From Isoetes taiwanensis (lineage: Eukaryota > Streptophyta > Lycopodiopsida > Isoetales > Isoetaceae): DNA of 64,000 nt. Below, piece after piece: positions 12,169 through 48,593 of this stretch (position 1 is its first letter; the number at the start of each line of letters is the position of its first letter). A program made the position numbers and the translations under genes. The stretch spans positions 4,799,665 to 4,863,664 of the forward strand of contig JAJEKV010000046.1 of the NCBI GenBank assembly GCA_021234155.1, written 5' to 3'. The notes below the pieces were generated by a model. That model was not told the DNA's origin. It saw nothing but the letters and a program-made list of their open reading frames with translations, and did not search any database.

Positions 12169-12420
12169 TCATTTTAGAATTTTAGGTGCTGAGCTCTTTT
12201 GCCTTTTGCAAAACTATACATTACATTCTAGCATTGTGTTTCTTAACTTGCACATGATCACCATCCTAAATTCGTGGGTGAAAATATGTCAAAGCTTATA
12301 AAGGATGCAATCTAAAACATAGAATTACAGGATTAAAAATTCAAATGGTATTCAGCTCATAGAGTATTCATAGGATTAGTTCAATTTTTCAAATTTGAAT
12401 ATCCAAATAAAGAAACTTGC

Positions 12421-13974
12421 TTGCGATGCGGAGTAGCTAATGCTTTATCATTGACGACTTGCTTTATATTATTGGAACAAGAAAACAAAGCGAGTAAAAG
12501 TAAGTTGCCTTGCACATCTATTCGTGCATTGTGTATCATTTCATTAGTTGTTTTCGTGAATAGTAGAATTTGTGGACCAATGCCTAGTAGAGAGCGACTA
12601 GCTAGTTTAACCGAGGAACGTAGGGAAAGAATGAGACAAAGAGCAAGAATGATATGCTACACAGATTGAAGAGAAAAGAGAAAAGAAGGGATAACGTTTT
12701 GCAAATTTAAATGAAGAGGATAGGAATATAGTACGAAAGAAAAAGGGAGCTTTATAGACAACAATTGTCTAGGCCAATAGAAGATATGCAAATAGAAGAT
12801 AGGAACATGGGGTCTAGTGAATTGAATTAGGACTTGACCATTATTGTAGACAGAGGTTCCCAGAATCTTAATAAAAAGATTGTTGTAGATGCGACGAGAT
12901 TAGGCACCACGCAGGGTCCAGAACAAAGACACTCAATTCATTGGCAAGCTTGTGCACGACGTATGAGTTTGGCAATAAATCTAACTTACATGATGTGCAC
13001 GTGGAATAAGAGGTGTACCAATTGCCAGATCCCACTACTTAACGTTGAGCAAGAGGATTTTGTTGTAATAATGGGAGATGACAATTGCCACGATTACCCC
13101 CTTTATCCCCAGCATTAAATAACCTGTACAACACGCTCGATTTCGATACAGAAGCCAGAAAGGTGAATAAATTATTTTACTTTAGTGTGCTCGTAGTTGA
13201 CAGTGGATTTATAAACCTGAATTTTCCACCATCCGTTATGATTACGGGTCGCACATACCATCGTCTACTTCCTACGACAGAGATTGGAAATCCTACACCT
13301 TGGTACATCTATGACGAGTTACAATGCTACATGCAGGTGCGAAATCAGAGGGTGCCATTCCAATGGATTGCATATCGGTTCAATCCTTGACCAGATAAAT
13401 CCATTTATTCGAAATCTCCGGACTATTGGTAGCTATAGCATGCCATTAGCATACATAACAATTGAAGGGGCGGTTGCAAGCGATGAGATTGCGGCCATTG
13501 CCGAAGTCAATAACACGGCCGACATTACGCCTCGAATCGCTGGTTTCTGGGTATAAAACCAAGGGGAACCAATCTTTAGGAGCATTCTTGATCCTATGTA
13601 TGAACCACTTCAATACCCCCTGTTTTACCCACATGGTACATTAGGCTAAGGAACTTAAATGAGTATAATCTTATGCAATTGCAATGGTGCAGGGCGAGGT
13701 TGCTGCATGAGGATCGATTCCTCCAACTAGGCCGCCTATGTGGGGAGTACTTGGTAGACATGTACTCGAGGGTGAAGGATGCTCGGTTAAATTACCCGAA
13801 TGCCGATATACAAAAGGGGAGGATACAATATGATGAGGATTATTCCAAGCGGGAATGATGACCAGAATGACATAATCTTATCTGCATCATTCTTGGGATG
13901 CAAAAGATGGTGTTCTGTACAAATAGCGGATGCATTAACACTCTCAAGGGCAAAAGGTCATCCTACACTAATAT
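12421..13974 (+). pseudogene. Helitron Rep, N-terminal half, copy A
   Basis: Fragments of a Helitron replication initiator spread over at least five frames. From 12580 (ATG): 'MPSRERLASLTEERRERMRQ'; then 'IHWQACARRMS', 'LPPLSPALNNLYNTLDFDTE', 'ARKVNKLFYFSVL', 'MQVRNQRVPFQWIAYRFNP', 'LRTIGSYSMPLAYITIEGA', 'DITPRIAGFWV'. The Helitron_like_N segment is at 13673-13858 ('RARLLHEDRFLQLGRLCGEY', 'LVDMYSRVKDARLNYPNAD') and 'ILSASFLGCKRWCSVQIADA' follows. It stops at 'LSRAKGHPTL', where the intact protein would continue with the HUH nuclease core. That core is found instead at 46.2 kb. Several stops and frameshifts make it non-functional; similar lesions occur in copy B. Confidence 0.9.
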
Positions 13975-14091: not shown

Positions 14092-14092
14092 A

Positions 14093-19676: not shown

Positions 19677-19974
19677 TAAGGCTTTCTGAACTCCTGGCTT
19701 TGGTTTTCTGCATTGTTGAATGATGTATAATGCCCTAAATTTAGAAGTTAAATCTCTGATAAAAATATTATAAGATTGCTTTAGATTCAGTTCTGAGCTC
19801 TGCCCTTATTCCGCCCTCAGTTTGGATGGGAAAATCTCGCGGGACTTGGAACGTTCTAGCTAATGCTTGAAGAGTGAAAATATTTAGCAGAGAAAAATCG
19901 GAATCCCTGCTCTGCCTTGGCTGCCCTACAACTGCATCCGCCCTGGAGTTTTGGCTTAGAAGTCAGTGCTTTTC

Positions 19975-20547: not shown

Positions 20548-20987
20548 ATGCAGACATTTTGCCTTTTTTCACACTGCGGTATTGCTGTGGCACCACCAAC
20601 TCTGTCTCTGCAGCTCTTCATTTTGGCCTTTGCCTTCTCCTCTCTACAAATTGCTTCTTCTTCTCTATAGAATTGCACTTACAACAACATATCCTTTCTG
20701 TCAACTAAAAAGCTTTACATGTCCAACAGCCCCCCCATGGTTCTTTTCACACTAGCTCGCCCTCAACATTTTTCATCCTTATTTTTTTTTTTGTTCACTT
20801 TAAAAAGAAAGGAAAATAAAACTGGGGCAGCATTTGTATATCACCATGGTTACCTACTATAACTAGATATTACTTTTTTCGTCATAACGATTATAAGTAG
20901 ATATACTATATATATAAAAAGAAAAACATATTTAACTTCAATATAATCTCTAGTTTGTACAGTTAATTTTGTCTATCAGTCATAGAC

Positions 20988-21114
20988 ACAACATTAATAT
21001 TGCTCTACTAGTCTATGTCCTACAACTACTAAATACAAAAACACAACCCCTCAACATTAATATTGCTCTACTAGTCTTTTCCCTACAACTACTAAATACA
21101 AATACACAACCCCT
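20988..21114. repeat. 64-bp tandem duplication (copy B version)
   Basis: Same repeated ACATTAATATTGCTCTACTA and ACTACTAAATACAAA pair as at 11369-11495. Confidence 0.85.
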
Positions 21115-21459
21115 GACTTATCCATGCATAAAGTTCCTCAACATTCAAAAAGCAATAAAGTTTCCACCAGCAATTGTTTTTCCTTCTTTTCTGACTTTTT
21201 CTAACCTCTTCGTTACTCGCCACAATCACTAGGGTGATTGTTCTATGTCTACAACTAGATCAAAGCTGAAGTTCGATAACAAAGTTATTGGATATTTGTT
21301 TGCCATCATCAACCTTAATAACGTACAAATAACTGTACAAGCATGCAAAATTACACTAGACTTCAATGTGTAGATCATGTGCCAGACGTACAAGAGCGGC
21401 AATAGCCTAGGGCTCGGCATGCAAGGAGCAGACGCTTTTCAATCACATTATCTCTCCAA

Positions 21460-21463
21460 TCAT
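21460..21463. other. Empty target site of the MITE (single TCAT)
   Basis: Copy B reads CTCCAATCATTTTAG without interruption. At the same place copy A has TCAT, 322 bp of element, TCAT. This fixes the element boundaries and the 4-bp duplication. Confidence 0.92.
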
Positions 21464-21819
21464 TTTAGAATTTTAGGTGCTGAACTCTTTTGCCTTTTGC
21501 GAAACTATACATTACATTCTAGCATTGTGTTTCTTAACTTGCACATGATCACCATCCTAAATTCGTGGGTGAAAATATGTCAAAGCTTATAAAGGATGCA
21601 ATCTAAAACATAGAATTACAGGATTAAAATTCAAATGTTATTCAGCTCATAGAGTATTTATAGGATTATTTCAATTTTTCAAATTTGATCATACAAATAA
21701 AGAAACTTGCTTGTTGCATATTTTGCCAAAATTTCAATTTGAAGTTCCAAACTAAAGACAAACCACATGCAAAAGGAGTAAAAAGGTATCTTCTTATGTG
21801 TGCAGAATATTGCGATGCG

Positions 21820-23387
21820 GAGTAGCTAATGCTTTATCATTGACGACTTGCTTTATTATTGAAACAAGAAAACAAAGCGAATAAAAGTAAGTTGCCTTGC
21901 ACATCTATTCGTGCATTGTGTATCATTTCATTAGTTGTTTTCGTGAATAGTAGAATTTGTGGACCAATGCCTAGTAGAGAGCGACTAGCTAATTTATCTG
22001 AGGAACGTAGGGAAAGAATGAGACAAAGAGCAAGAGAATGCTATGCTAAACGGATTGAAGAAGAAAAAGAAAAGAAGGGATAACATTTTGCAAATTTAAA
22101 TGAAGAGGATAGGAATAGAGTACGAGAGAAAAATCGAGCTTTATAGACAACAATTGTCTAGGCCAATAGAAGATATGCAAATAGAAGATAGGAACATAGG
22201 GTCTACTAAATTGAATAAGGACTTGACCATTATTGTAGATAGAGATTCCCAGAATCTTAATAAAAAGATTGTTGTAGATGCGACGAGATTAGGTGCCACG
22301 CAGGGTCCAGAACAAAGACACTCAATTCATTGGCAAGCTTGTGCATGACGTATGAGTTTGGGAATAAATCTAACTTACATGATGTGCACGTGGAATAAGA
22401 GGTGTACCAATTGCCAGATCCCACTACTTAACGTTGAGCAAGAGGGTTTTGTTGTGATAATGGGAGATGACAATTGCCACAATTACCCCCTTTATCTCCA
22501 GCATTAAATAACCTGTACAACACGCTCGATTTTGATACAGAAGCTAGAAAGGTGAATAAATTATTTTACTTTAGTGTGCTCAGAGTTGACAGTGGATTTG
22601 TAGACCTGAATTTTCCACCATCCATTATGATTACGGGTCGCACATACCATCGTCTACTTCATACGACAGAGATTGGAAATCCTACACATTGGTACATCTA
22701 TGATGAGTCACAACGCTACATGCAGGTGCGAAATCAGGGGGTGCCATTCCAATGGATTGCATATCGGTTCAATCCTTGATCAGATAAATCCATTTATTCG
22801 AAATCTCCGAACTATTGGTAGCTTGAGCATGCCATTAGCATACATAACAATTGAAGGGGCGGTTGAAAGCGATGAGATTGCGGCCATTGCCGAAGTCAAT
22901 AACACGGCCGACATTATGCCTCGAATCGCTGGTTTCTGGGTATAAAATCAAGGGGAATCAATCTTTAGGAGCATTCTTGATCCTATGTGTGAACCACTTC
23001 AATATCCCATGTTTTACCCACATGGCACATTAGGCTAAGGAACTGAAATGAGTACAATCTTATGCAATTGCAATGATGCAGGGCGAGGTTGCTGCATGAG
23101 GATCGATTCCTCCAACTGGGCCGCCTATGTGGGGAGTACTTGGTAGACATGTACTCGAGGGTGGAGGATGCTCGGTTAAATTACTTCAGAACGCCAGCCT
23201 TCTGAAATAAACAGGAGGATACAATATGATGAGGATTATTCGGAGCGGGAATGATGACCAGAATGACATAATCTATTCTATTCTATTCTATTATCTGCAT
23301 CATTCTTGGGATGCAAAAGATGGTGTTCTGTACAAATAGCGGATGCATTAACACTCTCAAGGGCAAACGGTCGTCCTACATTAATAT
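21820..23387 (+). pseudogene. Helitron Rep, N-terminal half, copy B
   Basis: Same protein as at 12421. From ATG 21967: 'MPSRERLANLSEERRERMRQ' and 'RARECYAKRIEEEKEKKG', longer and better kept than in A, then 'RQQLSRPIEDMQIED', 'LNKKIVVDATRLGATQGPEQ', 'LSPALNNLYNTLDFDTEARK', 'MQVRNQGVPFQWIAYRFNP', 'AYITIEGAVESDEIAAIAEV', 'RARLLHEDRFLQLGRLCGEY', 'LVDMYSRVEDARLNY'. It ends 'GRPTLI' at base 23387, where the 445-bp repeat starts. Local damage: a short ACTTCAGAACGCC insertion and a CTATT microsatellite near 23277. The Rep nuclease core and helicase are absent here. Confidence 0.9.
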
Positions 23388-23884
23388 GTAGCAAAATAAC
23401 AAAGGGGTTCCAGGGGGATTTCATATGGATGTAAAAAAAACAATTCCTGAAACCATAGACCATAAATCCCTAAAACAATTGAATGGGTTGTTATAAAAAA
23501 AAAAAAACATAAATTCAAGATAAAGAATAATCATATTAGCTCACTGGATATATTGGTTAAGGTAGACTTATTAGGACATTGAGTTATTTTGATAGAGGTT
23601 TGAGCCCTCGTATTTCATATTCTAGAATCTTAGGCAAAGCCGTATAGAGGTTCGATATTCCCGCAAAACCTTAGGCAAAATCGTATTTCATATTTCACAA
23701 TCATAGGCGCCCCCAATCATAAATGACTATAAGCGAAATGAGAGGTGCCCAGAGGCCCCAACATACGATCTGGGTTGTAGGATCGACGAATCCGATGACT
23801 GTGGTAGTTAGGTTGCACCTCGTTTAGAATATGTAGCAAAATAACAGGGGGTTCCAGGGGGATCTGATATGGATGTAAAAAAAA
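23388..23884 (+). repeat. tRNA-like repeat, one complete 445-bp unit plus start of the next
   Basis: Type unit. It runs GTAGCAAAATAAC ... GGATGTAAAA (A-run 1), CAATTCCTGAAACCATAGACC ... GGGTTGTTATAAAA (A-run 2), CATAAATTCAAGATAAAG, an A-box-like TAGCTCACTGG (23537-23547), a B-box-like GGTTTGAGCCC 49 bases further (GGTTCGAGCCC in other copies), TATTAGGACATTGAG between them, and a 3' half ending GTGCACCTCGTTTAGAATAT at 23832. The next unit begins at 23833 and is cut at A-run 1. Polymerase III-type boxes plus A-runs suggest a tRNA-derived SINE-like module. Confidence 0.85.
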
Positions 23885-28059: not shown

Positions 28060-30461
28060 AAAATGTGTAGGGAAGATGAGAAAAAAGGGGAAAGGAAAGT
28101 GTGTAGAAAAATAAGAAAGAAGGAAAAGGGGAAAGAGGGATAAAGCAAAAGGCAAAAGGAAGTTTCCGTCCACACGAGTTCCCAACTTACTGGGCACCAT
28201 AAGATATAAGATTACAATTGAGCTCACTTTCAATGCAGTTGACTTACGTTTGGGATTGGGTCGTTTTATAATCACCATGCAAGGATAAGGTTTCCTACTT
28301 GTCATTCAACATGTTGACAAATGATTATGTCCCAGGATTGCTAAAAAGTCTAAACTAGCCATAGGATGCTTGGGGCAATGGAATGTCGGTTGTACGGAAG
28401 AAGTAGATATCCACTATCACATTGAAAAGAAGAAAAGAAACACTATCCCAAGAAGAAAAGAAACACGATGACATTGAAAACAAAACTACTTTGTAAAATT
28501 AAATTAGGATCTAAAAGCACATGGGAGCTAAGAAAAAGAATGAACAGTTAATTAAATTAGCGAATAAGTCTTATCAAATCTATGATTCTCAACAAATAAG
28601 TTGGTAAATATATCTTCTGAAATGTGCACACCCTATTGCCCTCGGAGACTCACATAAAAATGTTAAAATACATGGGAGCTAAAATAAACTTGGCGACCAC
28701 ATTTCACCATGTGCAAAAAGTTCATAAATGACTTGGAGATTCATTGCAAAATGTTATCAGTAAGTAAATAAATATCACAAAACAACATTAAATAACCAAT
28801 TATATAAAATGCCAATGGATTCATTGCCTAGGCAAGGTTTCATCACCTAAGCTATATGTTCTTTTTTGCACGGCAAGTTGTGTCAAATAGGAACTAAAAC
28901 AAAGGCGCGAATTGTTATCGTTTGGAAATAAGCTAATATAGAATACAAACGAAAATGCCGACTATTTTGTTATTTAAACCACGACTCTTTGATGCGAATC
29001 TCAGAGGGGACAAAAATATTGTTACACTTAGATGAAGACTCATTTGAAGACTCATTTTTGCAGGCTGGGCACTTCTCATACAATTTACTCCTATTAAATA
29101 TGTACAATCACCATTCAAGTTAGTCGTTTGTGCTTTATCTTGAAGAAGCTGCACATAATAAGAGCAGAGCTTTGCAACTGAATTATGTCTACTACGGTCC
29201 TTGCATCCTCTTTTCTCATTTGAACGTGAAATGAAAAAGCATATCTCTCATTTTTCTTTGTTAAACAGACATTTGATAATATGTCCATAAGTGAAAAGCA
29301 TTACATGGATATAACTGCATACTGAGACATTAGAGAATATAACATTGAGACAACAGAGAATATGACATTTGACAATGCTCTTCAATGTCAAGCCTTGAGA
29401 AAATCTCAAATGGCTAGATAAACTACATCTGCTAATCTCCCTGAGTTGTTAGCATGGGTGCTTTATCAAACGCAATTAAATTTAATAAGAGCCAATCTGT
29501 CCTATACAATTTTTATCCCATTGTTTTTCAACATGCATCTATCCATCCTAGTCAGTGACACTGCAAGAATGGAAAAATTCGAAGGATGCTACTGTTAAAT
29601 GTCCCCGTACAGCAGAAAGTAGAATATATGTTGTGTGGTCCAAATCTAATCTACAAAGGAGGCAAGTGAAATGAATCTAAAGCTACACATTGACATTCCT
29701 TAATACAGATTGGTACCGGGTGATTGTTCCTGTTTGGCTGTTCAAAAATGGCTTGCTTTCGGATTCCCTAGATAATATACAGATGCTCTAGGAAGCCTCA
29801 AAGCCTAGAGCACCAAAACCTGGAGTATAAAAACAATGTTAAACTCATCTGCTTTGTCCAAGCAAATCACGAAAATAGATCACAAAGTCATCAGTTAACT
29901 CAAGAACTGTTCTATTCTTCCATATTCTTCTATAACAACTTCCCTTGTGCTTCAATTCAAAGGAAATTTTGAAGTTTAATGTTGAAAGGTTGCACGTGAA
30001 GGAAATCCATAACACCTGCAAGAAGTCCCGCCTCTGCAATACATATTAGAGTTCTTAAAGCACTGAACATGAGCTTAAAGTAACAAACAATTGAAAACGA
30101 TCTTGAAATTGAGCTTGAAGAGAATGCGAGATTGAAGAGATTATTTGAACTAGCAAGAAAGAGAGGGAAAACATTATATATCATATTATGGACTCACAAA
30201 AAGGATTTGCTTGTATGCATTCAAAATTCTACAAAGGATTTTACCCAACGTAAGCCTGTGTGTACTGGACCATGTCCAGATAGAATGGTGGATTGCTTTA
30301 TGTACACTGGCACCAAAATTCCCATTGAAAAGCTGAACCCCAAAATGATGAGATTTCTTGGTAGGTTCAGGTTTGCAAACTGAAGGTAAGAGATTCCACT
30401 TGACGTTGAAGTAAACTAGGAAATGTCACTGTCTGTCTTTAAAGAAGAGTAAGTTGCTCAG
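28060..30461. other. Intergenic, no gene recognised
   Basis: AT-rich. A plus-strand frame around 30087-30383 ('NDLEIELEENARLKRLFELA' then 'RKRGKTLYIILWTHKKDLL') looks exon-like and coiled-coil-forming but has no family match I can name. Everything else is short frames without motifs. Confidence 0.45.
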
Positions 30462-30800
30462 ACAGCAGCTACAATGGGTGCAGGTATGGAAGCGAACATT
30501 CCTCCAAATTTCCCAAACAAACTGAAGAAGATCATGAATAGGGCAGCTACTTGAATAATCCTATGGTTTCCAACACTTGTTATTCCATTAAGGCCAGCAT
30601 TTTCCCTGCAAATTGTAGGGAAAATGCTGGCCTTAATGGACGGTGCAACAGGTTGCCATGCCAAAAAGACCATTAAGGACAATAGCCACACCCTAAGAAA
30701 CAAGGAGAACAAAATGTTCATCAAGGTTGCAAATAAGATGGAGGGATGGCACCTGCAAGCCTGGAGATTCCATACAAAGCACCTGTCGACACCATACCTT
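30462..30800 (-). pseudogene. Nucleobase-ascorbate transporter (NAT) fragment
   Basis: Minus strand. 'VSTGALYGISRLAGAIPP' matches the 'ESTG..AISR.AGATPPP' part of plant NATs; then 'VAIVLNGLFGMATCCTV', and after a disrupted stretch 'ENAGLNGITSVGNHRIIQ', 'VAALFMIFFSLFGKFGGMFA', 'SIPAPIVAAV'. NATs are proton-coupled membrane carriers of uracil, xanthine and related bases. Only the part around the signature helices is present, in three frames. The break at 'TVS-VENAGL' is caused by a perfect inverted duplication (separate entry). Upstream NAT exons were not found, so this is a gene piece. Confidence 0.85.
30584..30640. repeat. Perfect 24-bp inverted repeat, 9-nt loop, inside the NAT fragment
   Basis: The left arm 30584-30607 (TCCATTAAGGCCAGCAT...) is the exact reverse complement of the right arm 30617-30640 (...ATGCTGGCCTTAATGGA). 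On the minus strand one arm is the true codons for 'ENAGLNG'; the other is an inverted extra copy. This is the signature of template switching during replication. Confidence 0.95.
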
Positions 30801-31009
30801 GAGAATCGTTTCTCTCGTTTCATAGTTTTTAACAAAGGGATGATTTTATAGATAAAAATTAGAGAGCACCACCTGCTAATCAAATCAAAGAAACATATGG
30901 ATATTTCCATGGATCGGCTCGTTTGCAACATAAAAAGTAGGCGAATATTAGGAAGAAAGGCCTTACCAGAACCACTATGCAGTCCCAAACAGAAGTTCCA
31001 CCTATCTTT

Positions 31010-31470
31010 ACCTGTGCAAGAAGATACCAAAGTATGCCATAAAGTTGGATGCCCTTCCAAGTCTGATTGAAAGTTCTCTAACGTGCACTGCCATGATGGG
31101 CCATCATTCTTATTGATGCTATTAGACATACAGTTTTGTGGAGGAATGGATGCATATATTAGTGTACAAACTGCCATAATATAAGTTCCAGCCGTAGCCA
31201 TGTCATTTATTGTTTCTGCCATAATATCAGTTTTAGCCTTAATCATCTCTTGTTGAAAGAAACCCATTTGAACTTGCACTTGTGTGCATGAAGCCTGGTT
31301 TAAGTATAGTTCGTGCATTGGCAAATAATGCGTCATATTCACGGCCCTTCAAGAGATACATGATAAAGGTAACCAAAGTGCCCAGTCGCAGTCCTGTACA
31401 GAAAATACTCATTAAATAAATAAGAACCCTATAAATGCAGCCATGCAAACAAACAGACCCACCTTTGTGC
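31010..31470 (-). other. Unidentified exon-like frames, minus strand
   Basis: Two overlapping frames: 'LRLGTLVTFIMYLLKGRE' then 'YDALFANARTILKPGF' after a CAG acceptor-like site, and 'IKAKTDIMAETINDMATAG', 'TYIMAVCTLIYASIPPQNC', 'SDLEGHPTLWHTLVSSC' ending at a CACAG|GTAAAG donor near 31010. They lie between the MFS and NAT remnants on the same strand. I cannot assign them to either family. Confidence 0.3.
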
Positions 31471-35044: not shown

Positions 35045-37915
35045 TCAAGAAAGAGCTCTTGAATGGAAACAAGAGAAAGATGAGCGAGCGGGGTCCTCAT
35101 GAGTTCTTGGTGGGTTCCTTGCTCCAACAATCTTTGCCCTTCCTCTAGTCTGATGGATGACATCGGCATTTTTGGATAGTTGAGAGCTGTGTGTGACTAG
35201 TATAGTGGTTTGCCCACCATCATGCCATCTAGTGTTTTTGCACAACTTTTTTCGCACTCATCATCGGGGCACTTATAGCTTCATCCAATAACAATATAGT
35301 TGGATTCTTTAATATGGCCATAGCTAATGCTATCCGTTGTTTCTAGCCACGGATAAATTTGAAGTCCTCCTTCGCCCGGAAGTGAATGTGGAATAGCCGT
35401 GAAGAAGAAGCCCGACCCACCAATTAGAATAAAAGTAATAATATAAGTGATGTAGCAAAAGACTATTTAATTAACAACAGAAACTTCACATACCAGATAA
35501 AATTGTGGGCACTCACTGCTCGTGCTGCTTCAAAAACCTCTGTTTCTGCTGCATTCTCTTTAACATAAGCTATATTATCCCAAATGCTATAGCCAAAGAG
35601 TGTTGGCTCTTGGATGACGAGTGCAATTTGATGTCTCCGAGTTTGAAGAAATAGGGTCATAAAACCTTTCCACCAGCCCAATAATTGAAGACTTTCCTGA
35701 ACCACTTTGACCCACCAACGCCATACTTTGTGCAGCATAGATTTTTAAGTTGGAAGTTTCTAAAATCATGGCATGCTGGATAGGCAAAACTGATGTTCTC
35801 CAACATAATCTCACTCGTTATGTTTTCCAATGGCTTGGCTTTACTGTCATTAGCATTTATTTTTGTCTTTTGATCTAGAATCTCAAATCTGGCGTCAAAG
35901 TTTCAGCCTCTGCAAGAACTCGACCAGTGCTAACAAGGACAAATATAGTTTTTAGGACCTCTCCAAATGTGGCCTTCCCTTGCTTTACTAGTATACTACC
36001 ATACCAAAAATCCAAACTCCATGATGCATAAAGAATGAATTGAGCAACCCCAAGGCTAAGACCTCCAATATGGCATCTCTTCATGGTTCTCTTGGTAGAA
36101 GACTCAATTTTATTTGGAAAGATTAAAAATTTTGTTTTGAGGAAAATGATGTGATGGTTCTTAGATCTTTGCTTCACTTACTACTTTGCTTGCTGCGACC
36201 CCTCTTGTGCAAATCCTTGTAAGGATGTGCTTTTATATAATAACTGCGCAATAATCAAAGGTTGTATGGCTATTATAATCAAAAGCCAATCTCAAGATGT
36301 TAAAAGACCTATAGCAAAGCTACGGTGATAAGCATTTGCGGTCTGTAATGGCAATGAAACTTCGATCACCAACAAATGCTCAAATCTACAAATGAATAAA
36401 AAATAAAAGTTAGAACTAACAAAGATACAAAAATATAATAATATAAAATTATGCGGGATTAAGTGATGGGATTATCACTTGTTATCGATCCACGAGATGC
36501 TAACGTAGTTGAAAATATGTTGCATAGTGCTCATTTTCGACCTTGGCCATTAGTTCATCATGACCACCAACTTAAACAAGATTGCAGAGTGTAGAATTTT
36601 GCTATAGTATCGGTGTTACATTATCATGGATAATCTATGTGCAATAATAATAGTTATGCGGCCAATATAAGTTGTCTCAAGGGCTTGTTAAAACCCAATT
36701 TATTTTGAAAAGCTATCAAGGGCACTTGTAAGCTTCATCCAACAAAAGTATGCATGGATTTCTAATCAAGGCTCACGGCAATTGCAATCTGGCGCTTTTC
36801 ACCTCGACATGGACACCATTTTTCACCAACACATTGTGTAGAAACACAAACACAATTATCGCATGCCCATTTTACGCGCTACAAATTCCACATTTGGGTT
36901 ATATCGACTTACTTGCGTATCATATCCTGCTTTGGTAGTTTAGTAATAAAATCATGTGCATTTTCTTGCCTTGGCGACAATAATAATTTCATCCATAGTA
37001 GCATCTTCTTTTCCATCTGAGAATGTTCCCTTTTATTGAGGTGGAGAATAGTGTTGGCTCTTGTCGACCAACCCCAATTTGCTTTTCTCAACCATCCCAA
37101 CTTCAAATTTTTTAATGTTAACTCCATCAAGAAGAACCTCGCCTTCAGAGGCTCATAAAACCATTCTAAAGAGCAATATGTATTGGACTTCCACATCGCT
37201 ACTACCAATTTGCAGTCACTTTTCTGATAAAACAATAAAACTAAGTGTTACAAAGGTCTCAACATTATAATCTGGAATGGACCCTTGCTCAAAGATACTA
37301 GTCTATCCATTAATCATACCTGTGGTATCTTGATTAAAATGTTGTAGAATAGCTGCATCACTTCTTGAAGGATATGAGAAACTAACATTTTTAAAATGTA
37401 TGTTTCCCTCAATCTTTTAAGTGATGCGCCATTGTCGATGTCGAGTCGAGGGTGAAATCGTTCAATCCGCGTGGAATACTCTATGATGCTAGATTTTAGA
37501 TAAACTAAATCTTCAAAGAAGGATAGGCTTGACATACATGCCACGGAGATGGCAGCAAAACCCGTGGCTAAGATTTGTCCTCCATTGGCATGAACATGAA
37601 TAACAAGAGCGGCTTCCATACCATGCCATAAAAGCCCAAAGTGCAAAGTTAATCCGGCTTGAACCCATAGCTACTCCTTTAACAATCCCTTGCCCATTAG
37701 CCCAAGTTTGATAGTAGCATCTAAAGCTTTGGAGTTGTAAGCATGTAGGATTCTCTTCTCGACTACAAAGGAATATATGGTGCGGATTGATAATATAGCA
37801 CCTTTCTGAAATAGAACCAGCTTTGGCATAAGCCCTCTCTCGACAAATGCTAATATCTGAAGAGCTTTACTATAAAATGCTCCTAAATATCGAGTAAAAG
37901 CCAAAGCCACCGTGT
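35045..37915 (-). pseudogene. ABCB-type ABC transporter, nearly full-length fossil
   Basis: Reading the minus strand from 37915: TMD1 end ('ILSIRTIYSFVVEKRILHAY', 'NGGQILATGFAAIS'), linker 'RLDIDNGASLKRLRE', NBD1 ('LKLGWLRK', 'NAHDFITKLPK', signature region 'GEKRQIAIA', Walker B 'LLLDEA', 'IIIAHRLS'), TMD2 ('SSTKRTMKRCHIGGLSLGVA', 'QFILYASWSLDFWYGS', 'KATFGEVLKTIFVLVSTGR'), NBD2 ('[20 protein letters not shown]', '[18 protein letters not shown]', '[20 protein letters not shown]', 'TTILVTHSSQLSKNADVI'). The NBD1 Walker A is destroyed and most helices of TMD2 and early TMD1 are missing. Many stops and frame changes. ABCB proteins export auxin and lipophilic compounds; this copy cannot. Confidence 0.92.
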
Positions 37916-38163
37916 AGCGGTTAAGCGGTTAACGCCGTGTTCTAGTCCATTTCTAACAGGGATAGGCCAAATCACCCGGGAATTTACACCGATTTGCATG
38001 CCGGTTATCCGGTTGAAACACCAACGATCAAAGCGGATGAGCGAATTTCTGAGGGGGCGGGGTTTGGGCGATCACAAGCATATTCTAAGCATATTCTGGC
38101 ATATACCAAATATATGCCACCAACCCATATAAACAAGGGTTTGCCCCCCTAGGGGCAACCCAA
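37916..38163 (-). repeat. GGGTTGCCCC hairpin motif, copy 3, with flank
   Basis: The minus strand from 38163 reads TTGGGTTGCCCCTAGGG, GGGCAAACCCTTG, ATATGGGTTGGTGGCATAT. Further along the same strand are CGGATAACCGGCATGC and GCGTTAACCGCTTAACCGC. It abuts the repeat array exactly at an A-run (CCC|AAAAAC). Confidence 0.65.
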
Positions 38164-39009
38164 AAACAATTTCTGAAACCATAGACCATATATCCCTAAA
38201 ACAATTGAATGGGTTATTAAAAAAAACATAGATTCAAGATAAAGAATAATCACATTAGCTCACTGGATATATTGGTTAAGGTAGTCTTATTAGGACATTG
38301 AGTTATTTTGATAGAGGTTCGAGCCCTCATATTTCTAGAATCTTAGGCAAAGCCGTATAGAGGTTCCTTAGGCAAAATCGTATTTCATATTTCACAATCA
38401 TAGGCGCCCCCAATCATGAATGACTATAAGCGAAATTAAAGGCCCAACATACGATCTGGATCGTAAGATCGACGAATCCGATGACTGTGGTAGTTCAGGG
38501 TGCACCTCGTTTAGAATATGTAGCAAAATAACAGGGGGTTCCCGGGGGATCTGATATGGATGTAAAAAAAAAAAAAAAAACCCATATATTCCTAAAACAA
38601 TTAAATGGGTTGTTATAAAAAAAACATAGATTCAAGATAAAAAATAATCACATTAGCTCACTGGATATATTGGTTAAGGTAGTCTTATTAGGACATTGAG
38701 TTATTTTGATAGAGGTTCGAGCCCCCATATATCATATTCTAAAATCTTAGGCAAAGCTGTATAGAGGTTCGATATTCCCTCAAAACCTTAGGCGAAATCG
38801 TAATCATAGGCACCCCCAATCATGAATGGCTATAAGCGAAACGAGAGGTGCCCAAAGACCCTAACATACGATCTGGGTCGTAGGATCGACGAATCCGACG
38901 ACTGTGGTAGTTCAAGGTGCACCTCGTTTAGAATATGTAGCAAAATAATAGGGAGTTCTAGGGGGATCTGATATGGATGTAGAAAAACAATTCTTGAAAC
39001 CATAGACCA
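38164..39009 (+). repeat. tRNA-like repeat array, two units, left of the Helitron
   Basis: Anchor GGTTAAGGTAG at 38272 and 38673. Starts at module 2 (AACAATTTCTGAAACC) and stops at CCATAGACCA, in the middle of module 2, where the Helitron begins. The continuation TATATCCC is found at 44545. Confidence 0.92.
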
Positions 39010-39020
39010 CTAGAAACGTG

Positions 39021-39039
39021 TGCCCGGCGATGCCGGGCA
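39021..39039 (-). terminator. Helitron 3' terminal hairpin
   Basis: Perfect 8-bp stem with 3-nt loop, 7 nt from the CTAG terminus. This is the palindrome that signals the end of rolling-circle transposition in Helitrons (family knowledge). It is not a transcription terminator. Confidence 0.88.
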
Positions 39040-39529
39040 TTAGTCATCGTGGGCGCTTGTGAATTCAATTTATGGAATGCATAAATGTATGATTCTATAG
39101 ATGCGTGTTGCAAAACTGGACATTTAGATGAAGAAATTAAGCAGGAACAAATGGATTGTTTGAAAATGCTAGTTGAAGTTTATAAAGGGTGTAAAGTGGA
39201 TCCACCTCATTGAAGGTCATAAAGGCCTAATGTCAGATATATACATATGTTGGAGCAGTATCCTTGTTCAGCCTCCGATCAACATCATAGTCAGTGTAAA
39301 AGTGAGAGATGAGGTAAAGTCTTTGATAGAACCTACCATCAATCAATAAACCAATTGAATTTAAGTGTTATCGTATCACAATGTTCTAAACTACCTTGGG
39401 TCGGTTCCTATTGCATATTCCTATAAAGGTGAAACCCCTTGTCACTAAGAGGAACTCTATGAAGGCGGTTCCTATGACAACAACGACACATCTATTTGGC
39501 GTAGTGAGAGGCTCTAGATGTACACTTGC

Positions 39530-39533
39530 AAAA

Positions 39534-39564
<31 letters not shown>

Positions 39565-39591
39565 CACACACGCGCGCGCGTGCGCACACAC
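39530..39591. repeat. Compound A(n)-(CA)n-(CG)n-(CA)n tract
   Basis: About 20 A, then roughly ten CA, five CG and several CA repeats. Alternating purine-pyrimidine sequence of this kind can adopt Z-DNA. Open frames through it are artefacts. Confidence 0.93.
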
Positions 39592-40214
39592 CACAAAATA
39601 GATTCCAAAGTATTTTGCAAGGATTTCCATGTGTAAAGAGTAGCAAGCGAGTGTCCAGTGATAATCGCGGCATTAGTTGCAGGTGCATAGAGTAGAAATA
39701 TGTAAATGGTGCATAGGTGGAATGGAATGTGTAGATGTAATGGCGCAGTGAAATGCATAGCTGCAAAAGAATAGGTATGTAAGGGTGCAATGAAATGGAT
39801 AGATGTAATGGTGCATAGATGGAATGAAATAAGCCAAAGTAATGGAGTGTATAGATGGAACAGAGTGTAAAATGTATATTAGTCAACATGATGATCCCTT
39901 CTTTATGGTATTGACTATGGACGTTGAATTATAAGGGATTGCAAGAACACTTGAGTAAAATTCAATTGCCAAAACTAAAAGTAGCAAATGCTTGTTTTGG
40001 AGTATTTATATAATTGCAGTGCAAGGCCCATCCATGTGATGGGCACACAAGGTTTATACGTGTATGCCTACAATTAGGGGCCATGCCTATCCCTAATAGA
40101 GGAACCACCAAACAAAACTAATGCACACAGAAATGACATGATGTTCTTGGCTGGGCGATGATCGGAACATGCACCATGGGAATCAAATACATAGTTGTCG
40201 AAATCATGGTCTGC

Positions 40215-40760
40215 ACCCTATTTCCACCAAGAAACGAAGAGCTATAGCTGCAATAAGGACAGGGTCCCACCATCTTAGAATTGAGGCAGTAGTTGGGAGT
40301 GCGGATGGAGGCGGGAATCCCCCATGAGAGATTATGCAGTCTTTGTCACATGCGGATAGTAGAAGATGAACACCATGCTCTCTGGGAATGCCCATCATAT
40401 GCACACATCGGCGGTCCATGCCGATCTCGGATGCTCACGATATAGCAATTCACCATGGCGGCTTTTGCCAATGGTGGCGCGTCTTGCGTCCTACATTACG
40501 CAAGTCTCCACCCGTCGGGGAGTCCCTCCACGGCCACGAGGGGAATTTGGCGCCCAAATAGGGCCTCTCAGCGCCCTACTACAAGGGTTTTTCCTCCCAC
40601 AGGGAGGTTTTTTCATCCCAGTGGTAGAGACACATTGTACATGATTTCTGTGGTTTTATTTTGTGTTTGGAAACTTTCTGCTATATTGTAAAACCGTCTC
40701 ATAGGCCAGTTGGTCTCCATGGACGTTAAAATACACTTCCTTCCTTCCTTCCTTCAACTT
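40215..40760 (+). mobile_element. LINE 3' end with zf-RVT motif and TTCC tail
   Basis: Plus-strand frame reads 'AIAAIRTGPHHLRIAVGSAD' and 'CSLCHMRIVEDEHHALWECP', a CxxC...HxxxxC zinc-binding end typical of the reverse transcriptase C-terminus of plant LINEs. Then a 3' UTR with GGGTTTTTCCTCCC, AGGGAGGTTTTTTCATCCC, CATAGGCCAGTTGGTCTCC, TGGACGTTAAAATACA and a (CTTC)n tail at 40738-40757. 5'-truncated; it lies inside the Helitron. Comparable 3' ends are at 52830 and 58261. Confidence 0.8.
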
Positions 40761-42518
40761 AGAAAAGTAAAGTCACATGCAAAATGAATATAAGCAATCC
40801 TGCAATCAGACATATTTGAGTACTGAGATTCCAAATAGCATCTTGCCAATCATTTTTTATTCAGACATGAAAACCATGTCAATTTAATCCCAATCTGGTG
40901 AAATTTTCATGCTTTGAATAGCTGTAGAAGTGAGACTCATTTCTCAAAGTACATTAAGATTTATATAGAGAGCAGTTATTAGTGAAGAGACTACAACTGG
41001 CATCAGTCTGCTCAAGGAGCAGGTATGACAATTGATTTTGTCACATATTTAATTTTGTTTCTGCTTGTCACATCTTCTATCAAGCATGGAATGTACTACT
41101 GCATTTCTGTCATCCAATGACCAGTTAGATAATGGAAGAATATGTAAAATGGTTGACTAAGTTGTGATATATTGCCAGCCTGAGAAATTCAAGTTCTAAT
41201 CCCTCCCTTATAGCAACATGCAAGCTAATTTTCTTCAAGTCAGTTCCGTCATGCAAAAGGCAACATGCACGAATTATCTAAAGAAATATCTATTAACCTC
41301 TTTGGAAGATTGCCTGTGAACATGTGAATCTGCCTACCAATATTTCAGCCAGAAAAAGTTCTTGCCTTCCCCAAACCACATGTTTTGCACTTTTGATACT
41401 TGGGGCGTTAGACTCCATCTCTTAGCTAACGAAAATGGCAGCATGCTTCTCTTTACCATGTCAAGCTGTTCAAAATAGTTAGTTTATAGCTTTCTGTGCA
41501 CTTGTTTATCATAACGGAGTTGAGCCTAGACTTGATAGATGATTCGCTATGCTCTGTGGCAAAAAATGACCCCAACAAAATGTATATTTAACGGAAAGAA
41601 GCAATTGGAAAAAACTTTTACCTCCATATATATATTGATTGCTTAACCTCACTCAAGAGATATGTTTATAGCAGCCACGAAACATACCGGGGAAATGATA
41701 TTCTTATCTCAAATTCCAGCATTTTGTGCCATACATTGCACGCTGTATAGTTTAATCTGCAACCAATTATGGCAATCATAAAGCATGAGTTAGCAAGCCA
41801 GATCTTAGGTCATCAAAAAAGATTGTAGAGCGCCGAAGTTGGAAAAGCATCATGGTGTATGGTCTATCGCTATTAGCTACCAAGGAAACACTAAAAAATG
41901 TAATAGAAAGCACTGCAACTTATTAAACTGGGAATCAACAACAGATTTGGTAAAAACTCGGTGGTTGAAGATGGGTGAATCGTACACCAAACATCTTTTA
42001 CAGAAACATTTTACTGATTTAATGGACATGCAGATATAGTATATCCATGAACCCATAATAAAATACAACTTTACATGAGAATATGAGCCTACATCAAAAT
42101 TTTACAACATATTGAATCTGAAGCACGATGTCATCCCAAAACATGCACAAACAAAAAAAAAAGAGAAAAAAATCAAGCCTAGTAAATAGAGCCCAGAGCT
42201 AGAGAATCTGCTCCCATGAAATCAGCAAAGATCTGGTGACGTCTGCCTTAGTCGAAATGAGAGTAATGAAAAAATTATAAAACAAAGATGAAATAAGAAA
42301 ATTTGGAATTGCAGAAAGAAAGCAGAGTTAACCCAAACTTAGAAGATGAATCTCAGCATCTGCATATGTAGCATAATAACGGGGGGTTTTCTTTGTGTTT
42401 TTGTACGTTTTTCACTAAGGTTTTCCTATGATTTCGTGATGTATTCAAATGGATGTACTAATGCGTACATCTAGAGTGCACCATTTATGAGCCATTGATT
42501 TTAGCTTTTTTTTTTCCA
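40761..42518. other. Helitron interior, no gene recognised
   Basis: AT-rich. The 41839-42039 frame has no known domain. Confidence 0.5.
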
Positions 42519-42765
42519 ATGGTCAACAACCAATGGCTCACAACAAAAGCCCTTTTTTTTGTGCATGTAGTGCATAATGGTCAACAACCAATGGCTCACA
42601 ACAAAAGCCCTCTTTTTGTATGTGTGGTGCATAATGGGCAACAACCAATGGCTCACAACAAAAGCTCTTTTTTTGTGCGTGTGGTGCATAATGGTCAACA
42701 ACCAATGGCTCACAACAAAAGCCCTCTTTTTGTGTGTGTGGTGCATAATGGGCACATGAAGGGCT
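42519..42765. repeat. 57-bp minisatellite, four units plus a partial
   Basis: Each unit begins AATGGKCAACAACCAATGG, CTCACAACAAAAGC, then T-rich, then TGTGGTGCAT. Starts 42519, 42577, 42634, 42691, 42748. Period 57 (58 in the first) is a multiple of three, so frames on both strands stay open and give repetitive 132-aa and 97-aa translations. I do not regard these as proteins. Confidence 0.93.
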
Positions 42766-43419
42766 TGAAGGGCGCATGTAGTGCGGTTCCCCATGGCAAC
42801 ACATTTCTTATCATAACTTTTGATCGAGCTCTGTTTGAGATGATTTTTATTGCGTTGGAAAGTTCTCTCCGAGATCTTTTTGATATTGTATGATATGGAT
42901 ATGTTTGATTAAGTTATCTATGCTAAAACAGCAATTTTTCGGCCGGGTTTGGTAGGCTTTCACATCCTACCAAGTGATTAATACAAAATTGCGCTATTGG
43001 ATATTGTTTTATGGCTCATTAGAATGAAGCTTGCAAAAATTACCATGCATTTTTTAGATTTTTGAGGCAGTTATTAAGCAAATTCTAAGGCTTCTAGATC
43101 CTTGTGCTAACAAGCAAAAAGTTTCCACTTTGGTTTCTCACCACAAGAATCCATGGAGGCCAAAAGGCTTGTTAAATTCAGGTTGAAAATGAATTTGTGT
43201 ATGGGTGTTGCAAACTTTATGACTTTGGAATAATGGGATCAATATGCTCTATCTTTATGGTAACTTTTACTTATGTTCTATTTGTTTTGTTGTGATGAAA
43301 TTTAAAAGCTACGGTGATAAAAAACTTCAAATGAATTCTAGTTTTTTACGGTTTTGAATTCTAAAATTTTTGTCACAGGGGCCGTCCCCTAAGGCCCGAA
43401 GGAGGCCAAAAATTTTTGC
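42766..43419. other. Helitron interior, no gene recognised
   Basis: No motif on either strand. Contains GGCCGGGTTTGGTAGG-type words but no repeat I can match. Confidence 0.4.
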
Positions 43420-43883
43420 AACCCAAACCATTAACATCCAACATATAAAATTAAATCCAACACATAACAACCATTGACATTAACAACCAACACATAACTA
43501 CCATTGATATTAATTAACACAACCATTGGGTTCAACACATTTTAAATTAAATCCCCTTAAACCCCTTTGGTTTGGGTGCATATTATTTGCGGGGTGGCGT
43601 AGCGAGCGAGAGCCCTCATAATTGTATTTTGCACGTATAAAATCAACACCATATAGTATTCCGCTTGAAATCTTATAGTATTTTGCGAATCTTGTTATAC
43701 AGTATAGCAAATTTTGTACTTGCATACCCCACAAACGAGGAACTTTACGTACGGTGTAGATTAAGGAACCCAATGGTTGTGTTAATTAATATCAATGGTA
43801 GTTATGTGTTGGTTGTTAATGTCAATGGTTGTTATGTGTTGGGGGATTTAATTTTTATATGTTGGATGTTAATGGTTTGGGTT
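43420..43883. repeat. Fold-back with arms of about 115 bp
   Basis: Left arm 43420-43533 (AACCCAAACCATTAACATCC ... AACCATTGGGTTC) is nearly the reverse complement of right arm 43766-43883 (GAACCCAATGGTTG ... GGATGTTAATGGTTTGGGTT). Spacer about 230 bp. Within each arm CAACACATAAC and CATTGA(C/T)ATTAA words are duplicated. RNA from either strand would form a long hairpin. Confidence 0.93.
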
Positions 43884-44544
43884 CCTGTCCCTTCAAACTG
43901 CTAGACAATAAATAAAATTCAGTTAAATATTTAGACCAGTGATGCCTGAGGTCGTTACCGCTATGCATTATGTGTCTAAGACCTGATCTCATAGTCATAA
44001 CCTCATAGTCTATCTGCCCGAAATGCAGCAAGAGAACCTCAAAGGTAGCCAGAACTACCGTCTAAGGCACCAAAAATGCGCAGTCTTGAGACGTGGCGCA
44101 TGTAAAGAGGAAATGGGAACCTCGAGCATCTGCCGCTACATGCAAAAAAAATTGAGGATTAGAATGGTACTCCACACATCGAAAGCAACATCTAAATCTG
44201 GTCCATTCAAATCCATCCAAAATGACATTGTTAATTCATCAAATCAAGTGCCATATAATAAAAGGAATTGATATACCAAATGGGGAAGAGAAAAGGTCGG
44301 AAAACTCAGTGGAACGACCAACATTTTGATTGCAACTAAAGATGGCGATTTGAAGGAGGGTGAATCTGATATGAAGAAGAGCACCGAAAGGGTGGAATTT
44401 GATAGCGTTGGAACGAATGCAGAGGAAAAAGGATGTATGGTTCAAAAAAAAAATGTACCGCGGGGGAGAGGGAACGCCGCATGCGGCATTACATGCGGTG
44501 TTCCAGGCACATTTCCCAACCCCTTGCCTTTTTAAAAAAGAAGA
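43884..44544. other. Helitron 5' region, no gene
   Basis: Includes GCCGCATGCGGC, a 12-bp perfect palindrome near 44474, and the CCTTTTTAAAAAAGAAGA terminus. Antisense frames have no domain. Confidence 0.5.
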
Positions 44545-46229
44545 TATATCCCAGAAACAATTGAGTGGGTTGTTATAAAAAAAAAAAAACACAGATTCAA
44601 GATAAAGAATAATCACATTAGCTCACTGGATATATTGGTTAAGGTAGTCCTATTAGGACATTGAGTTATTTTGATAGAGGTTCAAGCCCCCGTATTTCAT
44701 ATTCCAAAATCTTAGGCAATATAGAGGTTCGATATTCCCTCAAAACCTTAGGCGAAATCGTATTTCATCGTACAATCATAGGTGCCAATCATAAATGACT
44801 ATAAGCGAAACGAGAGGTGGCCAGAGGCCCCAATATACGATCTGGGTCGTAGGATCGACGAATTCGATGACTGTGGTAGTTCAGGTGCACCTCGTTTAGA
44901 AATATATAGCAAAATAACAGGGCAAAATAACAGGGGGTTCCAGGGGGGTCTGATATGGATGTAAAAAAATAATTCCTGAAACCATATATCCCTAAAACAA
45001 TTGAGTGGGTTGTTATAAAAAAAAAAAAAAAAAAACATAGATTCAAGATAAAGAATAATCACATTAGCTCACTGGATATGGTTAAGGTAATCTTATTAGG
45101 ACATTGAGTTATTATGATAGAGGTTCGAGCCCCGTACTTCATATTCTAAAATCTTTGGCGAAGCCGTATAGAGGTTCGATATTCCCTCAAAACCTTAGGC
45201 GAAGTCGTATTTCATATTTCAAAATCATAGGCGTCCCCAATCATAAATGGCTACAAGCGAAATGAGAGGTGCCCAGAGGCCCTAACATACGATCTGGATC
45301 GTAATATCGACAAATCCAACGACTGTGGTAATTCAAAGTGCACCTCGTTTGGTCTGATATGGATGTAAAAAAAAACAATTCCTGAAACCATAGACTATAT
45401 ATCCCTAAAACAATTGAATGGGTTGTTATAAAAAAAACATAGATTCAAGATAAAGAATAATTATATTAGCTCATTGGATATATTGGTTAAGGTAGTTTTA
45501 TTAGGACATTGAGTTATTTTGATAGAGGTTCGAGCCCCCGTATTTCATATTCTAAAATATTAGGCAAACGTATTTCATATTCTAAAATATGAGGCAAACC
45601 GTATAGAGGTTCAATATTCCCTCAAAACGTTAGGCGAAATCGTATTTCATATTTTACAATCATGGGCGCCCCTCATCCTAAATGACTATAAGCAAAACAA
45701 GAGGTGGCCAGAGGCCCCAACATACGATCTGGGTCGTAGAATCGACGAATTCGGCGACTGTGGTAGTCCAGGGTGCACCTCATTTAGAATATGTAGCAAA
45801 ATAACAGGGGGTTCTACGGGGATCTGATATGGATGTAAAAAAAATCAATTCCTGAAACCATAGACCATATATCCCTAAAACAATTGAATGGGTTGTTATA
45901 AAAAAAAAACATAGACTCAAGATAAAGAATAATCACATTCGCTCACTGGATATTTTGGTTAAGGTAGTCTTATTAGGACATTGAGTTATTTTGATAGAGG
46001 TTCGAGCCCTCGTATTTCATATTCTAAAATCTTAGGCAAAGCCGTATGGAGGTTCGATATTCCCTCAGAACCTTAGGCGAAATCGTATTTTATATTTCAA
46101 AATCAGAGACGCCCCCAATCATAAATGACTATAAGCGAAATGAGAGGTGCCCAAGGCCCCAACATACGATCTGGGTCGTAGGATCGACGAATCCGACGAC
46201 TGTGGTAGTTCAAGGTGCACCTAGTTTAG
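44545..46229 (+). repeat. tRNA-like repeat array, four units, right of the Helitron
   Basis: Anchors GGTTAAGGTAG (variants) at 44637, 45073, 45486 and 45957. It resumes at TATATCCC, the half of module 2 missing on the left. Units vary: one lacks the ATATT before GGTTAAGG, one lost the TAGAATATGTAGC junction, one duplicated GTATTTCATATTCTAAAATA. The last unit ends GTTTAG at 46229, directly followed by AATAT and Rep coding sequence. Confidence 0.93.
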
Positions 46230-48593
46230 AATATCATCACAATGACGACAAACACTGAGTGGCCCGGATACGAACTGCACTTAAACCTGGACAAAACGCA
46301 TCTGGCGCCCCTATGATTATTGTTCGTTGTTTCCATGATAGACTGCAACGACTAAAGGAGTTGCTAAAAATGTTTTTCCAGCGTATATCATACATGATGC
46401 ATGTAGTAGAATTTCAAAAACGAGGATTACCTAATGCACACCTTGTATTATGTACGGAGCCTGAAATACCATTGGATTGCATCAATCAGATAATTTTCTG
46501 CTGAACTGCCAACGGTTCCAATTCTTCGAGGACAAGTTCAAAAGTTCATGATACATATACATACAGAGAGATGCTCTTCAAATAATGCTTTCTGCTGCTA
46601 TAACTTTCCGAAGCCTGTTAATTCCATAACATACCTCGATTCAAGGGCTTATGTACAGTACAAAAGGAGAAATGTAGAGGACATGTGGGTTGTTCCCTAT
46701 AATGCATTCTTGCTCCATGAGTTGGATTGTCATATTATAGTAGTTATTTCGTCTACTATACACGTGTTTTCATATCTCTAAGGTTATATATACAAAGGGT
46801 TCGATATTGCCAATTTTCGAATAACCCAAGAGAGCCAATATGTGACTGAATCATCGTCAAGGAATAATCAACAGACACATCATATGTCAGAGTCTGTATC
46901 AGCAAATGTAGAATAAAGAATAGGAGCAATGAGAGAAACATTTGAAAACGTACCAACAGAGCAAACTGCGAGACCTTCTACTAAAAATGAGATATGAGAC
47001 TATATGAATGCACGGTATCTTTTTGCCACAGAGGCATCGTGGAGGATAATGTCCTATCACATAACGGATAAATCTCCATCCGTCAAATGCCTCCCATTAC
47101 ACCTACCATTACAAAATACAAATTCACTCTTGGACCGCTACTTTTTACGGCCTATAAGTCTCGAGTTTGACAATTTGACATATATCCAATACCACGAGCA
47201 CTTTACATTAAGTGCATACAAATGGACATCTATTTTGCAACGTGGCGAATATCTAGAGCAAGAATTTCAAAGAGCAGAATACACAAAAGGCATTGTGAAA
47301 AAGAGATCAAGACAACCAATTATATGTAGAATACGCCTCCTGCTACCTTGAGTTGGTGAAGCATTCTACGTAAGACAGATCTTGCTACATCGACCTGCCA
47401 GGACATGGGATGAACTTAAAAGAGTGAATAATTAGCAACATGAAACTTATCGATAAGATGCAGAAGCACAAGGACTTCTTGAAGTGCATAATGAGGCTTA
47501 TGGAAGAAGCGACATCGTTGTCTCTAAATCCTACAGAACTGCATTTTTTATTTGCAATGGTTTTACTTGATCAAGCACCAACGCTTGAAATATGGGATAG
47601 ATTTCGAGTACTTATGAGTCATGACCTACTAGATCAATACTCAGACGATGAGGCAGTTGCATTTAACGAATGTCTTCACCTGATTAACAACATATTAACG
47701 CAACATGGCACCAACATTATGGCCTTTGGCTTGCAATTACACTCTCGTCTAGCAAGAGATGTAATGCATGAATTAGCCACATTTTATGACCATGCGACAT
47801 ACTTAAATAGTGCAATGGAAATGTCAAGCATAATGAATGCTAATCAATTGGAAATATATAGTTATATACGAGATGAGCTAGAACGGCCTCAAAGTAGACA
47901 ACCAATATGCGTAAATGGCCAGGCTGGCATGGGAAAGACATTCATCCTCAATTGCATATACTTATTAATATGTGGAAACAAGAATATAGTGCTCTTATGT
48001 GGCACAACAGCACTCGCAGTTCTCATACCCAGGGGGGCAAACTGCACATTCGCTTTTCCAAATCCCTTTTGTAGAAAATAACATAGGTCTACATTCATTG
48101 TTAGAACGGGATTCGGGAGCAGCTCAACTCCTTATTGTAGCAAAGGCTATAATTTGGGGCGAGTTTAATGGCCAACAAAGCAGTTATAGAAAGTGTGCAC
48201 AACCTGTTGCAACAATTGTGTGGAAACAATTTACTGTTCAGGGGAAAGCATTTTATAGGTTCTGGAGATTTTAGACAAATAGGACCCGTCGTGAGAGGAG
48301 GAGATAAAATTGCAGCTGTTAATGCATCCATAAAATTATCACCGTTATGGCAAACATTTCATGTCTTGAAGTTAGAACAACCAATACAAAATGCAGGAGA
48401 TTCTAAACTCATGCAGTATGTCGATAACATAGCGGAAAACTGGGAGAAAACAACAGTCTCTCTAGACATATTCAATACAACTATTGAAATTACAGATGCA
48501 GAAAACTTTTTGTACCCATTTGAAGTCTTGAGGAATCCAACCGAATGTGGGAACCGAGCATTTTTGTCGCTAATTTTGGCTTCTACGTTTTAA
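46230..48593 (+). pseudogene. Helitron Rep C-terminal half and PIF1-like helicase
   Basis: Begins 'ITMTTNTEWP', the Rep text that should follow 'HPTL' of the N-half. Rep core: 'RLQRLKELLKMFFQRISYM', 'HVVEFQKRGLPNAHLVL' (HUH motif GLPHAH has become GLPNAH, 46424-46441), tyrosine motif 'YL*GYIYKG' with a stop at 46779. Helicase: 'ANQLEIYSYIRDELERP', Walker A 'GQAGMGKTF' (47917-47943), 'LLCGTTALAVLIPRG', motif III-like 'GDFRQIGPV' (48264-48290), 'LKLEQPIQNAGDSKLMQY'. It stops before helicase motifs IV-VI. Several frameshifts. Helitron RepHel nicks, unwinds and transfers the element by rolling circle; this copy is dead. Confidence 0.92.

Follow-up and report, generated by a model that had tools for sequence, protein, structure and literature searches.

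A 5,535-bp non-autonomous Helitron lies at positions 39010 to 44544 of the stretch of the Isoetes taiwanensis genome studied here (64,000 nucleotides of contig JAJEKV010000046.1, hereafter the window). It is inserted between A39009 and T44545, inside one unit of a tandem array of ~440-bp repeats, and the A^T dinucleotide that it entered (hereafter site S) is occupied by Helitrons in other copies of the repeat. Helitron ends lie exactly at S at 11 distinct loci, seven in the orientation of the window element and four in the opposite one. S is a recurrent landing site and, judged from a small number of events and taking recurrence as a sign of target choice, probably a preferred one. The repeat can serve as a naturally occurring test of how Helitrons choose targets: one genome contains about 3,064 near-identical empty copies of S and no fewer than 11 filled ones, with insertions in both orientations. 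S could be used to examine which cues in addition to A^T direct insertion.

Helitrons Occupy One Dinucleotide of the Repeat at 11 Loci

The recurrence was first seen at L076, one of 12 array loci that had been fetched for their borders, where another Helitron interrupts the unit at this A^T. Occupied sites in the window orientation were sought with a 20-nt pattern, consisting of the 16 nt of the unit that precede S followed by CTAG, with up to two mismatches. Thirteen of its 21 matches were read, namely the window and 12 places that were fetched. Four were excluded as non-junctions (L086, L087, L088, and L081, which is the unit itself), C889 (two mismatches) was kept, and three near-identical places on C1098 were counted as one locus. 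The eight unfetched matches are two places on C1018 that carry the letters of the rejected L086 and six that have no CTAG. The corresponding pattern for the opposite orientation had 161 matches; among the first 100, the four with an intact CTAG were fetched, and all were kept. Another of these 100, C1018:25954728, has CTAA and was left uncounted, and most of the others look like intact units. The total of 11 occupied loci is a lower bound.

In the window orientation the occupied sites are those of the window itself and of loci on contigs C1076, C101, C1078, C1019, C889, and C1098; in the opposite orientation they are on C944, C1087, C1018 (at 25367430), and C1082, all four with Helitron-like ends. 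Both ends of the inserted Helitron were seen at five loci (window, C1076, C101, C1082, and C944). A search of about 7 kb failed to reveal the far end at C1078, C889, C1019, and C1098; at C1087, too, it was not found. Over their 3'-terminal ~190 nt the elements at S have only the end motif (about 20–60 nt) in common, except that the 3' ends at C1087 and C1018 share a 90-nt stretch at 80%, and because of this divergence the insertions look like separate events.

Recurrence at S Probably Reflects a Preference

The genome holds about 3,064 intact S sites (three or fewer mismatches). For the class of 2,473 genome copies that share the 3'-end motif of the window element (see below), 0.048 insertions are expected at S, given an AT-dinucleotide frequency of 0.095. 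Four were observed, those of the window, C1076, C1078, and C1098 (Poisson, 2e-7; three observed and 2e-5 when the window is left out), in a test that treats the copies of one class as independent and whose expectation would be raised somewhat by diverged units that went uncounted. A more local comparison comes from two exact-match scans of the unit, which used conserved anchors and covered 11 AT positions. These revealed five loci occupied at S versus three occupied at other AT dinucleotides (L098, on C1037, together with L099 and L101, these two being at C1019:20657884 and on C1040), for a binomial probability of 4e-4 with p set to 0.1, or 0.0027 without the window. The first scan had 13 matches: six at S (five loci), L098 and L099 in arrays, L100, L102, and L105 outside arrays, and C1038 and C1065, which were not counted. 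The second had five: L101 in an array, L103 and L104 outside arrays, and two uncounted.

What may be at work, and we propose this tentatively, is a choice of target far narrower than "any AT," in which several distinct Helitrons, inserting in either orientation, are drawn to one dinucleotide of the unit by the sequence, single-stranded structure, or chromatin of that dinucleotide. If so, the dispersed arrays would serve rolling-circle transposons as a natural landing pad. A simpler account is that there is no target preference, the arrays being abundant or open and all ATs of the unit being entered at similar rates. The sheer number of intact S sites is in keeping with this account, as is the occupation of other AT sites, both at the three loci just named and, within the array on C1076, by a further Helitron end; the excess at S over the other AT positions scanned in the unit and over the genome-wide expectation argues against it, and we consider it rather unlikely. 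We are similarly doubtful that the recurrence simply reflects which local bases these Helitrons favour in general, the repeat itself being nothing out of the ordinary. A position matrix built from 39 flanks, which were chosen by end similarity and not by flank, does place S 8th of 134 site-orientations in the window orientation, but in the opposite orientation, that of four of the 11 loci, S ranks 72nd of 134, and the A+T content around S ranks only 51st of 63. Thus, the preference for S looks real, and local base preference explains it only in part.

Several points nonetheless count against S as a landing site. S came to notice because the window Helitron sits there, and the local controls are small (the five loci versus three described above). 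Only a single end is seen at six of the 11 loci, and the hairpins at C889 and C1087 are decayed. Finally, the 20-nt pattern is unspecific (21 matches versus 135 in the control), and its matches were therefore judged one by one.

A possible second recurrent site was also noted: at L093 (C1076) and L098 (C1037), Helitron ends follow GTTA in the unit.

Boundaries and Empty Site of the Window Element

On the plus strand the element and its borders (marked by slashes) read ...CCATAGACCA / CTAG AAACGTG TGCCCGGC GAT GCCGGGCA ... TTAAAAAAGAAGA / TATATCCC. On the minus strand the order is a TC start, an 8-bp stem with a 3-nt loop, a 7-nt gap, CTAG, and then T, in agreement with the letters described in an earlier, sequence-only reading of the window. 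That reading had also proposed that the 5.5-kb Helitron has an exactly reconstructable A^T empty site, and the letters bear this out: the flanks rejoin to ACCATATATCCC, which is found uninterrupted in sister units at 18466, 38185, 44981, and 45864, and from which the units at 45394 and 38581 deviate by one and two letters, respectively. The reading had singled out these empty-site paralogues as rare. They do exist, but they are not the rarest feature of the locus, as the same A^T holds other Helitrons elsewhere.

The last 36 nt fold as single-stranded DNA with an energy of -10.7 kcal/mol (z -5.0), and the stem ends 11 nt before the terminus, the canonical position of a Helitron hairpin being about 10–12 nt before the 3' end. 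The termini are of the TC/CTRR type, and insertion was into A^T without a target-site duplication. Indeed, all of the canonical Helitron features that we tested are present except for Rep-helicase genes of the element's own. By itself the hairpin/CTAG signature is within chance expectation (1 in the window, both strands, versus 6 in 20 simulated windows); it is the genome-wide matches that take it beyond chance.

Those matches were obtained from 1,658,258,908 bases in 1,110 contigs. The 3'-end motif (ACTAG plus the hairpin, three or fewer mismatches) had 1,270 + 1,203 = 2,473 matches, and its reversed control had 0 + 0; the 5' end with its T had 33 + 23 = 56 matches, and its control likewise had 0 + 0. 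Given these counts, the 3' end is common to a large group, and the 5' end marks a small family. For each end, 20 of 40 matches listed were fetched. A precedes CTAG (plus strand) at 20 of 20 3' ends, and T adjoins the element at 20 of 20 5' ends; in both sets the flanks are unrelated, save that L001 and L020 have a common flank, leaving 19 independent 3' flanks. This is the outcome that the sequence-only reading had forecast for a genome search with both ends. Nor was there any sign of what it had named as fatal to its proposal, a lack of other loci with both ends or homology running on into the flanks: a copy on C1030 (L043, described below) combines both ends with flanks that are unrelated, and no homology extends beyond CTAG or TC.

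We conclude that the window element is almost certainly a canonical, gene-less Helitron of the plant type. As a Helitron it is unexceptional, and its closest known kind is that of the canonical Helitrons of plants (the Helitron1 type of Arabidopsis) and of bats (Helibat1/Helraiser, compared below). A hairpin near one end, the absence of genes, and the surrounding tandem repeats might also suggest a Helentron/HINE or some other hairpin-bearing repeat, but the TC/CTAG ends, an A^T target (seen at all 40 of the ends that were fetched, in place of the TT preferred by Helentrons and HINEs), and a canonical Rep-PIF1-type partner make this highly improbable.

Two side observations concern the family ends. 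At L041 and L042 (C1033:17023700-17042200) there are four family 3' ends in two pairs, 3.93–3.94 kb apart within a pair; the flank after CTAG is identical, indicating local duplication. On C253, three exact 3' ends (at 97864, 103215, and 108575) lie in one orientation with a spacing of ~5.35 kb and are possibly tandem Helitrons.

A Candidate Rep-Helicase Partner on the Same Contig

As the sequence-only reading had stated, Rep and helicase were not found inside the element. None of five open reading frames lying in it (one of which overruns the edge) has a Pfam match above the curated cut-off, one of them having a GATase_7 match below it (E 0.0089), and tblastn with Rep proteins gave matches elsewhere in the window and none within 39010-44544. 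For this reason we regard the element as non-autonomous.

Matches to the Helitron_like_N profile are plentiful in the genome (150 scored of 1,813 candidates). Eight Rep loci were picked for their long open frames and examined together with about 8 kb downstream of each. One of these (C1052:6566384-6575932, on the window's own contig) is a Rep-helicase Helitron of 9,549 bp. Its terminal 36 nt are identical to those of the window element, ending in CTAG followed by T; its 5' end reads A and then TCTTCTTT... and is accompanied by a 29-nt block that is the same as that of the window element at 28 of 29 positions; and its frames match Helitron_like_N (E 4.8e-58) and PIF1 (E 4.4e-40). A second Rep locus, on C1018, ends in a variant of this 3' sequence; in the remaining six, two of which hold masked runs, the shared 3' end was not seen within the examined stretch. 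Counting against this reading, the partner's helicase is split across reading frames; any function of it, and any activity of these Helitrons, is putative.

Two Later Insertions within the Element

A sister copy of 3,759 bp at C1030:5280492-5284250 has both ends (CTAG and TC), A and T outside them, and different flanks; its hairpin is gone through a small deletion. Alignment with this copy leaves two blocks that the window element alone has, one at 40224-40751 and the other running from 42364 to about 43883. The sequence-only reading had described the element as carrying a long interspersed nuclear element (LINE) end, a minisatellite, and a fold-back. These blocks are present, but because the sister copy does not have them they are two later insertions and not Helitron cargo. 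The LINE identity of the first is weakly supported: besides a TTCC-repeat tail, it shows a zf-RVT match that is weak (E 0.038, below the cut-off). Insertion 1 and 28 further bases are also missing from the C1033 copies, one of which has the site of insertion 2 without the insert; insertion 2 has many dispersed copies in the genome. Compared with the sisters, a few bases were lost at each insertion, and a clear duplication was not seen.

The Host Array Interrupts an Older Helitron

The Rep fragments at 13058-13973 and 22447-23392 cover residue 310 through approximately residue 662 in the partner's frame, and both end at the start of an array. To the right of the window array, Rep resumes from 46289 at residue 679, and the letters between the array junction and this match, read by eye, continue the frame as ITMTTNTEWP. 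The PIF1 match at 46235..48437 is slightly below the cut-off (E 1.6e-5). Because the Rep protein continues across it, the array is a tandem-repeat insertion in an older Helitron's Rep gene; the window Helitron entered this array later.

Arrays of the unit are dispersed in the genome and vary in unit number; at nine of the 12 array loci fetched for borders the match begins exactly at ATATGTAGC. Insertion 2 (at 42364) and array units (at 38516, 38933, and 45789) open with nearly identical 25 letters, and at L047 (near 4817) array and insertion-2-like sequence are contiguous. On these two grounds, the units and insertion 2 are probably parts of one modular mobile repeat family.

Two other ideas about the array were rejected. 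Box A/B-like stretches raised the idea that the unit is a tRNA-derived short interspersed nuclear element, but ARAGORN detected no tRNA anywhere in the window, an Rfam search of 36000-47500 was without a match to E 1, and across 36 units conservation is roughly level, with no rise at the boxes and only the poorly aligned end departing from it. The idea that the array belongs to an autonomous Helitron, suggested by the adjacent Rep, was dismissed because the window's Rep and helicase pieces are unmatched (to E 0.01) at three other array loci and because Rep goes on beyond the array.

A Proposed History and Its Parallels

We suggest the following history. Rep-helicase from a related element, for example the partner on C1052, would have recognised the shared ends, from which we infer mobilisation in trans. 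By analogy with the rest of the family, a strand would have been displaced, beginning at TC and stopping at the hairpin/CTAG terminator, and would then have been joined between A and T without target duplication. The unit in which it landed belongs to an array that already interrupted the older Helitron's Rep gene. Afterwards, a probable LINE fragment and the 1.5-kb fold-back repeat landed inside the window Helitron. Elsewhere in the genome, other Helitrons have entered the same dinucleotide of the unit in both orientations.

The bat element Helibat1/Helraiser resembles the window element in its TC start, CTAG end, and 19-nt palindrome 11 nt before the end, as well as in an A^T target without duplication and a Rep-helicase partner (PMC4778049). 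What guides insertion beyond A^T has been studied experimentally with Helraiser in human cells, where AT targets in AT-rich surroundings of ~20 bp are preferred, whereas S is not particularly AT-rich; in the parts of that account considered here, we found no mention of a single dinucleotide in a repeat being used again and again (PMC4778049). HINE/Helentron elements of oyster are likewise rolling-circle elements that occur together with dispersed tandem arrays, but in oyster the element contains the array and prefers TT as its target, whereas in the window the array contains the Helitron and the target is AT (PMC7492417). MuTAnT of Medicago enters TA microsatellites and, as here, has repeated DNA as its landing place; it belongs to a different class of transposon, whereas here several Helitrons use one dinucleotide of a ~440-bp unit (PMC4486113). 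At the level of titles and abstract openings, we found no report in the open-licence literature of several Helitrons at one dinucleotide of a repeat.

Other Features of the Window

Table 1. Coordinates of the Helitron, its host array, and associated features in the window
Feature	Position	Strand	Evidence or remark
Non-autonomous Helitron, 5,535 bp	39010..44544	-	Termini, A^T flanks, genome copies
CTAG 3' terminus	39010..39013	-	CTAG kept, plus-strand A before, in 20/20 fetched genome copies
3' subterminal hairpin, 8-bp stem, 3-nt loop, 7 nt from CTAG	39021..39039	-	
TC 5' terminus	44543..44544	-	Plus-strand T next in 20/20 fetched genome copies
5' subterminal GC-rich block, common to same-contig Rep-helicase Helitron	44470..44498	-	28/29 nt identical
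Target A (partner T = 44545), site S, CCATAGACCA^TATATCCC	39009..39009		Occupied by other Helitrons elsewhere
Secondary insertion 1, probable 5'-truncated LINE 3' end with (TTCC)n tail	40224..40751	+	Missing in C1030 sister
Secondary insertion 2, dispersed ~1.5-kb repeat with minisatellite and fold-back, starts ATATGTAGCATAATAAC	42364..43883	+	Missing in C1030
57-bp minisatellite inside insertion 2	42518-42751		
Fold-back arms inside insertion 2	43420-43533 / 43766-43883		
Left part of host array of ~440-bp units	38162..39009	+	
Right part of host array	44545..46234	+	
C-terminal Rep and Pif1-type helicase remnants of older decayed Helitron split by array	46235..48437	+	
Matching upstream Rep remnant, ends at array start	13058..13973	+	Duplicate at 22447-23392

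Finally, we note three further features of the window. A segmental duplication (7054-14093 / 19780-23505), with 93–96% identity and broken by insertions, contains the Rep fragments and an array start. A repeat with the letters GGTTTGCCCCCC...GGGGCAACCC adjoins the array on the left (38100-38161) and recurs at about 24533. Pfam identified protein-kinase and permease-family fragments at 616-1158 and 30461-31348.

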